Positions 19,949-22,576 of a DNA stretch of 64,000 nucleotides are shown here, one piece after another (position 1 is the first letter of the stretch; every line of letters starts with the position of its first letter). Origin of the DNA: Neisseria sp. GTDB lineage: Bacteria > Pseudomonadota > Gammaproteobacteria > Burkholderiales > Neisseriaceae. The notes under the pieces are model-generated. The model was not told the origin of the DNA and ran no database searches. It saw only the letters and a list, made by a program, of their open reading frames with translations. The stretch lies in NCBI RefSeq assembly GCF_030530745.1, contig NZ_JAUMUI010000001.1, forward strand, positions 44,961 through 108,960, in the 5' to 3' direction. The position numbers were made by a program, and so were the translations under genes.

Positions 19949-20067
19949 GTCGGTTATCCTTAAGTAGAGGTTTTGCGGTTTGCTTAAAATGGCGCATTAT
20001 ATCAAAACACCTGCTTTCGGCATAGGAAGCAGACACACCGCGCAGCGCCTTGGCCGTTTTCTTCCAC

Positions 20068-21009
20068 TCAGATTTCCCAATGCCACAGTTTGAATCCGCC
20101 CTGAGCACCGCTGTTTTTACGGTAGTTGCCGGGGCTGATACCGTATTGCTTCTTGAAAGCTTTTCCGAAATGGGTTTCCGACTGAAAACCCACCGATAAG
20201 GCAACGGAGAGCACCGGCTGCGTGCTGCGCCTTAAAAGGACTGCGGCCTGCTGCAGGCGTATGCGGTTGACGAAGGCATGGGGGCTTAAGCCCGTTTTTT
20301 CTTTAAACAGCCGCATCAGGCCGGAACGGGACATATTGGCCGCTTCTGCCATTTCACCGACACGCCAGGGATATTCCGGCGCATCAAGCACAGCCTGCAC
20401 CAGTTTGTGCAGGTTGGGATTATTCCAAGCGGTCAGCAGGCCTGCCGGCAGCGCATCTTTTTTTTGAAGCAGATAGTGGCGCACAATCCAAACCAGCAGC
20501 ACTGATGCCAGTGCGTCGGTTACCACTGCCGAACCGTATTGCGTATCCGCCGCTTCCTCCTGCAGCAGGCCGGTCAGGCTGCGCAATGCATTTTGAGGCA
20601 GGTTCAGCAGCAGCATATCGGGCAGGCCTGCAATCAGCTCGGCTCGGCTGTCGTATTCGAAACGTGCGCAAAACAGATCCAACCTGCCGCCTTTGCCGGT
20701 GCGCCCTTTAAATGAAAATACCCCCTCACGGCGGATTTCCGGGACATCGCCATCATTTCCGCATCCGTATTCGCTGCTCAAAATATGGCCGGGAATGCGC
20801 GGAAAAAACACCACGTCGCCCGCCCTGAGCAGCAGGGTATCCCCGCTCTCCATCTGCATATAGCCCGATCCTTCGGTAACGATATGCACCATACCGCTGT
20901 GCCGAGCCGGTTTGTGCCGCACATACCAACTGCCTTCAAAACGGCACCGTACATCAATGCTGCCGCGTATCTGCGCCAGCTCGATCAGCCTGTCGAGCAC
21001 ACTTGACAT
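20068..21009 (-). CDS. AraC family regulator, RclR-like (reactive chlorine sensor)
   Basis: The 313-residue protein has an N-terminal cupin (about 1-190) and a C-terminal pair of AraC helix-turn-helix units (PWRVGEMAEAANMSRSGLMR, then ALSVGFQSETHFGKAFKKQY). Cys22 (DVRC) and Cys114 (LDLFC) line up, from memory, with the redox cysteines Cys21 and Cys89 of E. coli RclR, which form a disulfide after hypochlorous acid exposure. It is divergent from an rclC homologue, the strongest support for this role. A Correia element lies 64 bases upstream. A general cupin-AraC regulator is the alternative. Confidence 0.78.
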   Translation of the reverse strand: MSSVLDRLIELAQIRGSIDVRCRFEGSWYVRHKPARHSGMVHIVTEGSGYMQMESGDTLLLRAGDVVFFPRIPGHILSSEYGCGNDGDVPEIRREGVFSFKGRTGKGGRLDLFCARFEYDSRAELIAGLPDMLLLNLPQNALRSLTGLLQEEAADTQYGSAVVTDALASVLLVWIVRHYLLQKKDALPAGLLTAWNNPNLHKLVQAVLDAPEYPWRVGEMAEAANMSRSGLMRLFKEKTGLSPHAFVNRIRLQQAAVLLRRSTQPVLSVALSVGFQSETHFGKAFKKQYGISPGNYRKNSGAQGGFKLWHWEI

Positions 21010-21070
21010 TTTTCCACCATATTATGAGACGATTTGCAGATTATTATAGCCGGATTTTTGCAAAAATCAG

Positions 21071-21100
21071 GCTATAGCGGATTAAATTACTTCGATACAA
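21071..21100 (-). promoter_or_regulatory. Promoter-like left end of a Correia element facing rclR
   Basis: On the minus strand TTGTAT (21095-21100), 18 bases, then TATAGC (21071-21076). It would fire out of the repeat towards the AraC-type gene 62 bases away. Correia ends are known to supply promoters in Neisseria; use here is inferred. Confidence 0.4.
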
Positions 21101-21150
21101 GGAAGCAAGGCGCAGCAACGACGTATCGGAAGTTAAGTTAATCCGCTATA
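21073..21150. repeat. Correia-type element, short form (78 bp)
   Basis: The ends TATAGCGGATTAAATTAC and TTAAGTTAATCCGCTATA are near-perfect inverted repeats; most of the interior seen in 150-bp copies has been deleted. It occupies the middle of the divergent region between the RclR-like gene and rclC, so both promoters are affected by it. Confidence 0.85.
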
Positions 21151-21244
21151 TAAGAAAAATACGGAACAGCATCGGGGCACCATACCCTGTTTTACGCACT
21201 GAATCAGACTACCCCCAACCTTCTTGCAAATAGGAGAGCATAAA

Positions 21245-21820
21245 ATGAGCCTGTTTCAAAATGTTCTGGAAAAGATTGCCCGTGCCGACAAATTCGGTGT
21301 ATTTCTCTGCCGACTGTCTATTTTTATCGTGTTCGCTTGGATAGGCTGGCTGAAATTTATTCCTTACGAAGCCGACAGCATCGTGCCGTTTGTGGCCAAC
21401 AGCCCGTTTATGTCGTGGCTGTACAACGACCCCGCCAATTATGCCCAATATATGAACGCCGAGGGCGTATTGAACGAAGCTCACCGCGCATGGCACGTGA
21501 TGAACAACACCTACGGCTATTCCAACGGCCTGGGCGTAGTAGAACTGGTGTTTGCCTTTATGATTATGGCGCACTATATCAACCCGAAAATCGGCTTTAT
21601 CGGTGCGGCGCTCTGCTTTCTCACGCCTTTCGTTACCTACACCTTTCTGATTTTCACCCCCGAAACCTGGGTTCACGGTGCCGATGCGCACACCGGTTTC
21701 CCCTATCTTTCGGGCGCGGGCAGACTGGTGCTGAAAGATGCCATGATGGTTGCGGCGGGATTTATCGCCATGATCGATTCCGCAAGGGCAATTTTGAAAC
21801 GCGGGCAGGCTGAGGCCTAA
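21245..21820 (+). CDS. rclC: RclC-like inner-membrane protein (DUF417/YkgB)
   Basis: The 191-residue membrane protein shows FIVFAWIGWLKFIPYEADSI, then VPFVANSPFMSWLY, NNTYGYSNGLGVVE, and FPYLSGAGRLVLKD, all hallmarks of YkgB/RclC of E. coli. RclC belongs to the rclABC operon that protects against reactive chlorine species; its biochemical job is not known. I chose ATG 21245, where GGAGAGC lies upstream. The exported rhodanese follows after 86 bases. No rclA (flavin reductase) or rclB is visible in this window. Confidence 0.87.
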   Translation: MSLFQNVLEKIARADKFGVFLCRLSIFIVFAWIGWLKFIPYEADSIVPFVANSPFMSWLYNDPANYAQYMNAEGVLNEAHRAWHVMNNTYGYSNGLGVVELVFAFMIMAHYINPKIGFIGAALCFLTPFVTYTFLIFTPETWVHGADAHTGFPYLSGAGRLVLKDAMMVAAGFIAMIDSARAILKRGQAEA

Positions 21821-21906
21821 TGCGCCGTTGCTGAAAAACCTTTCCCGCCGGCACCAAAAGCCGGCGGAAACCCCCGTAAACCCTGTTACAACGAAAAGGA
21901 ACCGAC

Positions 21907-22281
21907 ATGCAAAAAGCCGTTTTCATTACCTTTGCCGCACTGGCCGCAGCCTTTGCCGCCGCTGCGCCTTCCGCCGCTCCAAACAGCAGCACGGCGGCAC
22001 AATCCGCTGTACGCCCGGCCAAAGCGGCAGGCATCTGGATCGACGTACGCTCGCCCGAAGAATACCGCCAAGGCCACCTTCAGGGGGCGCTGAACATCCC
22101 CGCAGATAAAATCGGTGCGGAAATCGCTGCTGCCAGCCCCGACAAAAACGCTCCTGTCAACCTCTACTGCCGCAGCGGCCGGCGTGCCGAAGCCGCCTTG
22201 CAGGTGTTGAAAAAAATGGGCTACACCAACGTAACCAACCACGGCGGCTATGACGATTTAATCAGACAGGGTTTGAAATAA
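21907..22281 (+). CDS. Exported single-domain rhodanese (PspE-like)
   Basis: Thiosulfate or persulfide sulfurtransferase expected in the periplasm. The 124-residue protein has an Ala-rich signal peptide (about 1-24), WIDVRSPEEYRQGHLQGALNIP, and the active-site loop YCRSGRRAE with Cys88. AAGGA lies before the ATG. The position directly after rclC suggests sulfane sulfur handling or thiol repair during oxidant stress, which is inference. The pair ends at an 18-bp-arm DUS terminator beyond a Correia element. Confidence 0.88.
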   Translation: MQKAVFITFAALAAAFAAAAPSAAPNSSTAAQSAVRPAKAAGIWIDVRSPEEYRQGHLQGALNIPADKIGAEIAAASPDKNAPVNLYCRSGRRAEAALQVLKKMGYTNVTNHGGYDDLIRQGLK

Positions 22282-22299
22282 ATCTGCTTTAAAATATGC

Positions 22300-22447
22300 T
22301 GTAGCGGATTCAATTACTTTGATACAAGGCAGCGAGCCGCAGGCAGTACAAGCAGTAGGTTCTGTTGCCGCTTCAGCGGCTTACAAAACCGTTCCCTTTG
22401 GGCTAAGGCGTGGCAACGCCGAAGCGAAAGTTAAGTTAATCCGCCTA
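22300..22447. repeat. Correia-type element, long form
   Basis: Left end TGTAGCGGATTCAATTAC, right end TTAAGTTAATCCGCCTAT. The interior has GAGCCGCAGGCAGTACAAGC, a TTGCCGCTTCAGCGGCTTAC hairpin and GGCAACGCCGAAGCG. It begins 18 bases after the rhodanese stop codon, so it will be read into the mRNA before the terminator, where it can fold and may attract RNase III. Confidence 0.85.
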
Positions 22448-22455
22448 TTCTATTA

Positions 22456-22496
22456 CTTGAGGCCGTCTGAAAACCATTTTTTCAGACGGCCTCAAG
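22456..22496 (+). terminator. DUS hairpin, terminator of rclC-rhodanese
   Basis: CTTGAGGCCGTCTGAAAA and its complement form perfect 18-base arms around a 5-base loop. Confidence 0.8.
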
Positions 22497-22576
22497 CCGG
22501 AAGCATTCGACAGAAATTTGCCCCCCCGGCCGCATTGGTGCGGCTGTAAAACGGAACATACGGATGCTGCTGCTTT

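Follow-up and report, generated by a model that had tools for sequence, protein, structure and literature searches.

An AraC-type regulator, an rclC gene and a rhodanese gene lie side by side in a contig of Neisseria sp., raising the question of whether these genes form a defense against reactive chlorine and how such a locus is assembled in this genus. The window, the whole stretch of DNA analyzed, spans 64,000 nucleotides. The available parts of two reports describe control by RclR of rclX in Pseudomonas aeruginosa and of rclABC in Escherichia coli under HOCl or HOSCN (PMC7950407, PMC12096828). The reading favored here, with moderate confidence, is that of an RclR-type, HOCl/HOSCN-inducible envelope defense locus that is horizontally movable and accommodates exchangeable effectors, the induction and the chemistry being what we infer from the known systems.

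The ORF list and translations of the Neisseria sp. window contain open frames for all three genes (Table 1). The regulator is divergent from rclC, and the rhodanese follows rclC. Pfam assigns Cupin_6 and HTH_18 to the regulator, DUF417 to the second gene and Rhodanese to the third. The rclC frame as listed begins at a TTG at 21224; the best ATG, at 21245, is preceded by a purine-rich stretch. The gap between rclC and the rhodanese (21821-21906) holds a hairpin, which counts against the favored reading.

Table 1. Features of the regulator-rclC-rhodanese locus in window coordinates
Feature	Position	Strand	Details or basis
RclR-type AraC/Cupin_6 regulator (Cys22, Cys114)	20068..21009	-	313 aa; Pfam, NCBIfam, alignments, tree
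Putative regulator box TGAGACGATTTGCAGATTATTA, 22 bp	21025..21046	+	kept upstream of ahpD in Neisseria
Putative extended -10 TGCAAAAAT	21059..21067	+	34-nt spacing to box start, shared with relatives
Correia-like element, 78 bp, presumed 5' leader of rclC	21073..21150	.	repeat analysis
rclC, DUF417 inner-membrane protein	21245..21820	+	191 aa from best ATG
PspE-like rhodanese, probably exported	21907..22281	+	124 aa; Cys88 in CRSGRR
Longer Correia-like element, 3' of rhodanese, ends approximate	22301..22446	.	repeat families D1, D2
Inverted pair of AGGCCGTCTGAA	22456..22496	.	repeat analysis
2.5-kb island between fabI and arsC-like gene	20032..22560	.	alignment to G011, G012

The second gene had been described in the initial annotation as a clear RclC homologue divergent from the regulator, and the curated models agree: its product passes the RclC model NF040476 (295 against a cut-off of 275 bits) and shares 105/188 positions (56% identity) with E. 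coli RclC. Identity to the RclC proteins of Pelistega, two Moraxella and Lysobacter pythonis (L016, L018, L019, L020) is 75-81%, which seems a lot given how far apart these genera are and could be due to transfer. The third gene, annotated as an exported rhodanese, retains that description on the strength of its Rhodanese domain and of a hydrophobic N-terminus that looks by eye like a signal peptide, and the protein is apparently periplasmic. Its only cysteine, Cys88, lies within the CRSGRR active-site loop; the curated PspE models are missed (94 against 102 bits and 91 against 126 bits). A second PspE-like rhodanese of the same genome (L013:908-1339) adjoins a dihydrolipoyl dehydrogenase gene.

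The proposal that the rhodanese stands in the place of rclA and rclB holds in part. The rhodanese does follow rclC, and no RclA ortholog was found among three matches in the window's genome, the two best of which were classified; the locus as a whole does not look like a reduced rcl operon. These two candidates were rejected: against an RclA model cut-off of 740 they reach 217 and 232, and by score they fall among the dihydrolipoyl dehydrogenases; the third match, on L015, has 24% identity. Among the ORFs of the locus, no rclA was found beside rclC and no rclB was recognized.

The arrangement of the locus is best understood against the genus. Of 47 Neisseria genomes, 6 have rclC, and a neighborhood table that takes the best match to each gene in each genome gives the regulator in 27 and ahpD (AhpD/CMD) in 28. 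Those AhpD/CMD copies that were read have the CXXC motif CESC; an AhpD of this kind was not found in the window's genome. The regulator adjoins ahpD in 25 of the 27 regulator-bearing genomes, with all 25 pairs divergent, and ahpD adjoins a rhodanese in 15 of the 28 ahpD genomes, so that a locus consisting of regulator, ahpD (RclX-like) and PspE-like rhodanese is common to 15/47 Neisseria (e.g. L142, L145). The order regulator-rclC-rhodanese occurs in the window's genome only, one of the six rclC-bearing Neisseria, while G039 harbors regulator, ahpD and rclC together. In three of the six carriers (G002, G008 and G016, over stretches of 12, 12 and 5.7 kb), rclC has neither regulator, ahpD nor rhodanese beside it, a further point against the favored reading. 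In G021, where the search detected no ortholog of the regulator, rclC is followed by ahpD (L008:5664-6696). Copies of the regulator or of ahpD are interrupted or shortened in some Neisseria (G008, G009, G015, G023).

Outside this set, 80 rclC loci were kept from 121 relatives, one of them a N. iguanae record and some ending at contig ends. An RclR-type regulator lies within 3 kb of rclC in 46 of these loci (L070 counted) and an AhpD gene in 29, and a rhodanese near rclC in none of the 80. The link between rhodanese and RclC that the initial annotation put forward is therefore not upheld, as the rhodanese is separate from rclC in most relatives (together in 1/6 Neisseria carriers and 0/80 outside loci). 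The idea of a reduced, rewired rcl module likewise gives way to a conserved Neisseria plan of regulator-ahpD(-rhodanese) into which rclC appears to have been swapped. The window locus is better read as a version of this common Neisseria arrangement with one effector exchanged than as a cut-down rcl operon of the E. coli kind, because the rhodanese accompanies regulator and AhpD in 15/47 genomes and rclC here occupies the ahpD slot beside the regulator.

These distributions also bear on whether the rhodanese belongs to the unit. It could be a housekeeping PspE-like sulfurtransferase that lies downstream by chance, leaving only regulator and rclC as the unit, and the empty count in the 80 outside loci, the hairpin that separates the two genes and the genomic distribution of the rhodanese (best match at E <= 1e-32, one per genome, in 36/47, with only 15 plus the window's copy in the locus) are all in keeping with this. 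The adjacency of the rhodanese to regulator-ahpD in 15 genomes, however, is spread over several branches of the regulator tree, although related genomes are not independent, and the window rhodanese is again found beside the same regulator despite a different middle gene. A chance neighbor is thus regarded as somewhat unlikely.

The nature of the signal depends on the regulator, which the initial annotation took to carry Cys22 and Cys114 at the places of the redox cysteines of E. coli RclR. These are Cys21 and Cys89, according to the accessible portion of PMC7464077. The regulator is 28% identical to E. coli RclR (86/303 columns), and the family alignment puts Cys22 in the column of Cys21 and Cys114 in that of Cys89, a correspondence that recurs in a larger family alignment and agrees with the annotated placement. 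The Cys114 match depends on the family alignment because plain two-sequence alignments pair Cys22 with its E. coli partner and do not do so for Cys114. Conservation was counted in 73 rclC- or ahpD-linked regulators, remaining from 85 aligned rows after 12 were set aside (10 controls, L059|7178 and L070); the set was collected through rclC, ahpD or regulator searches, making linkage partly a matter of design. All 73 have Cys114, and 71 have Cys22; the two without it are incomplete at the N-terminus. L059|7178 (the second regulator of its locus) and L070 (a doubtful match), both near rclC, have Gly at the Cys22 column and retain the cysteine at that of Cys114. Most of the aligned Neisseria orthologs also share a third cysteine, Cys83, the exceptions being G005, G009, G015, G023, G039 and G040.

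Regulators drawn more broadly give a different picture for each cysteine. Ten Cupin_6 regulators drawn class-wide as controls have Cys22 in 0/10 (one is without that stretch) and Cys114 in 7/10, and a wider phylum draw of 62 has Cys114 in 55; from these counts, Cys114 is a general feature of Cupin_6 regulators. Fifteen of the 62 have an rclC or ahpD match on the fetched stretch, three of them by a loose AhpD profile only. Cys22 is present in 5 of these 15 and absent in 10, and it occurs in 16/47 phylum-draw regulators without such neighbors (16/57 unlinked regulators in both draws together); both the absences among linked and the presences among unlinked regulators weigh against the favored reading. 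The case for Cys22/Cys114 as a mark unique to RclR is weakened by these counts. Eight of the 10 linked regulators without Cys22 have a cysteine three columns later. The ahpD-linked Cupin_6 regulators L260, L266, L271, L276 and L284, from other lineages, share this cysteine three columns past Cys22, and such ahpD-linked regulators are perhaps a second class of cysteine-pair sensors. The Cys22/Cys114 pair favors an RclR-type sensor without proving one.

Classification by whole-sequence methods is divided. The regulator misses the curated RclR model NF040475 by a wide interval (152 against a cut-off of 400 bits), which counts against the favored reading; the regulators of two scanned Neisseria relatives score 135 and 103 bits. 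A tree of 144 rows places the window regulator and E. coli RclR in one 80-row clade with an SH-aLRT of 99, in a quick search without bootstrap, with a midpoint root and long branches among the outside rows. The clade consists of all 72 rows of the rclC/Neisseria set and eight drawn rows, five of them linked and all eight with Cys22; Cys22 is present in 13/64 rows outside it.

The missed RclR model and the presence of the cysteine pair in unlinked Cupin_6 proteins would also suit a regulator that senses another thiol-reactive signal, such as an organic hydroperoxide, a quinone, an electrophile, nitric oxide or reactive sulfur, with AhpD, RclC and rhodanese as a general thiol-stress regulon. Members of the AhpD family are peroxidase-related, and rhodaneses handle sulfane sulfur, both of which agree with such a regulon. 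Against it stand the position of the regulator in the E. coli RclR clade and the passing of a chlorine-resistance model by RclC. In addition, P. aeruginosa rclR mutants are described, in the part of PMC7950407 that is accessible, as not sensitized to H2O2, methyl viologen, tert-butyl hydroperoxide, three electrophiles or an NO donor. On balance, sensing of another signal is judged unlikely.

The promoter region bears on the shared control that a defense locus with exchangeable effectors would have. Boxes resembling TGAGAYGATTTGMMGATTAT are common to the regulator-ahpD intergenic regions of Neisseria. With -10 patterns picked after viewing the sequences, 24 of 25 measured cases (window included) have the -10-like sequence 34 nt from the start of the box, and one has it at 33 nt; by these patterns G039 has neither box nor -10-like sequence. 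Two features of the window promoter count against the favored reading: its -10 sequence is TGCAAAAAT, a weaker one than the TGCAATAAT usually seen, and the 78-bp element lies between this -10 and rclC. A near-perfect palindrome of 32 bp (window 21045-21076) includes the putative -10 and borders the Correia-like element.

The box is rare in the genome. Its first 20 bases, used as a pattern, have one exact place and no other within 2 mismatches, and with up to 3 mismatches there are two places in 2.28 Mb, one being the exact site, compared with none for the reversed control. The other place (C40:1334, 3 mismatches) was rejected as a second target, as it lies inside a DoxX-family reading frame. 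For a scan of 13 sequences (forward strand, 300 shuffles each, uncorrected p values), a matrix was derived from 24 Neisseria promoters, the window's included, with each distinct box used. Box-like matches precede the stand-alone rclC genes of G002 (p 0.007), G008 (p 0.033) and G016 (p 0.003), and in G008 the genome's own regulator copy is interrupted. A Pelistega intergenic region also has a box-like match (p 0.010), those of Moraxella are borderline (p 0.11 and 0.08), and none was detected before rclC/ahpD in G021, G039, Lysobacter, Citrobacter, Edwardsiella or Massilia (p 0.20 to 0.97).

The three genes lie on an island whose site is empty in two close relatives: G011 and G012 are 92-96% identical in nucleotides to the window up to position 20031 and from 22561, with 11 bp between. 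The nucleotide match of G021 to the window stops at 20032. The flanks alone would suit gain and loss of the island alike; the window regulator is at most 55% identical to other tree rows, in keeping with a gain. Both repeat elements of the island are of a kind that we take to be Correia, and the AGGCCGTCTGAA pair is presumably of the DNA uptake sequence type. At the nucleotide level the island ceases to resemble regulator-ahpD loci between 21048 and 21073, where the 78-bp element starts, and the similarity of rclC to G021 starts at 21241, which suggests that the element may mark the junction of the replacement of ahpD by rclC. A decaying or silenced import, in which the leader element and the weak -10 leave rclC and the rhodanese poorly expressed, would suit the empty site in these two relatives, the 78-bp element that separates rclC from its putative promoter and the interrupted or shortened regulator copies of G008, G009 and G015, but is very improbable given three intact ORFs, the purine-rich stretch before the rclC ATG and the conserved box and spacing.

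The locus can be compared with several known systems. It resembles E. coli rclR-rclABC in its AraC/Cupin_6 regulator of the same clade with Cys21/Cys89-equivalent cysteines and in an rclC on the divergent strand whose product is 56% identical; it differs in that the window's genome has no RclA ortholog that was found, the locus no recognized rclB, and a rhodanese follows rclC. RcrR of UPEC, the regulator of rcrARB, is of the TetR type. As in rcrARB, the effector is a DUF417 inner-membrane protein (RcrB is an RclC homologue) under an oxidant-sensing regulator; unlike it, RcrR is a repressor, and the accessible text mentions no rhodanese (PMC9600549). The 25 Neisseria genomes with an RclR-type regulator divergent from an AhpD/CMD gene resemble P. 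aeruginosa rclR-rclX, in which RclX is AhpD-like with a CXXC (available part of PMC7950407) and is likened by description to the CESC-bearing Neisseria AhpD; the window, with rclC in that slot, is without ahpD. For P. aeruginosa itself, it is stated that the Rcl proteins of E. coli have no homologs there (PMC12096828, in part).

The partnership of a small membrane protein with a sulfurtransferase in oxidative defense has a parallel in the DoxX-SseA-SodA complex of Mycobacterium tuberculosis (accessible parts of PMC7907618, PMC9227533, PMC6930017), where the membrane protein DoxX and SseA, a sulfurtransferase, set a precedent for combining a membrane protein with a rhodanese (PMC7907618). The parallel differs in that kinship of RclC to DoxX is only weakly hinted at. 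Pfam gives DoxX_3 at E 0.08 for E. coli RclC and MauE at E 0.0006 for one homologue; DUF417 is the one Pfam family matched by the window RclC. Alignment of RclC with a single DoxX sequence by hhalign gives P 0.015 and a probability of 3%, and the best PDB match to the predicted RclC fold (mean pLDDT 86) has E 0.29, with none at E <= 0.001. RclC was accordingly rejected as a DoxX relative. It is improbable that RclC and the periplasmic rhodanese would form a membrane unit for sulfur transfer or thiol repair like DoxX-SseA, with RclX-type AhpD and RclC as interchangeable rhodanese partners under one RclR-type promoter. If true, this would be the first biochemical context for RclC, and sulfane sulfur would join the reactive-chlorine response. 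In E. coli, deletion of rclB or rclC increases sensitivity to HOSCN, and the mode of action is described as not known in the available portion of PMC12096828.

The reading of an inducible envelope defense with exchangeable effectors is supported by the same-column cysteines, the clade shared with E. coli RclR and the RclC model that is passed, and further by the adjacency of regulator to ahpD and of ahpD to rhodanese, the spacing and rarity of the box and the boxes before stand-alone rclC genes. By analogy with E. coli RclR, host HOCl, chloramines or HOSCN would oxidize Cys22 and Cys114. The activated regulator would bind the 22-bp box beside the extended -10, a promoter predicted from its conservation, and rclC and the exported rhodanese would be switched on as one transcript. 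RclC may then protect at the inner membrane, while the periplasmic rhodanese may handle sulfane sulfur, or cyanide from these oxidants and thiocyanate. In most regulator-bearing Neisseria, the same predicted promoter stands before an AhpD/RclX-like gene, often followed by a rhodanese, with rclC taking that slot here.

A literature search on titles and the beginnings of abstracts, which covered few subscription papers, returned no RclR-type locus described in Neisseria and no description of the regulator-ahpD-rhodanese locus of 15/47 genomes. The sequence data suggest the presence of an RclR-type regulator in 27 of the 47 Neisseria genomes examined. The predicted operator of this Neisseria regulator is directly testable. 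The locus also provides a handle on RclC, since the AhpD/RclX-like protein and the periplasmic rhodanese are the two partners to which it points.
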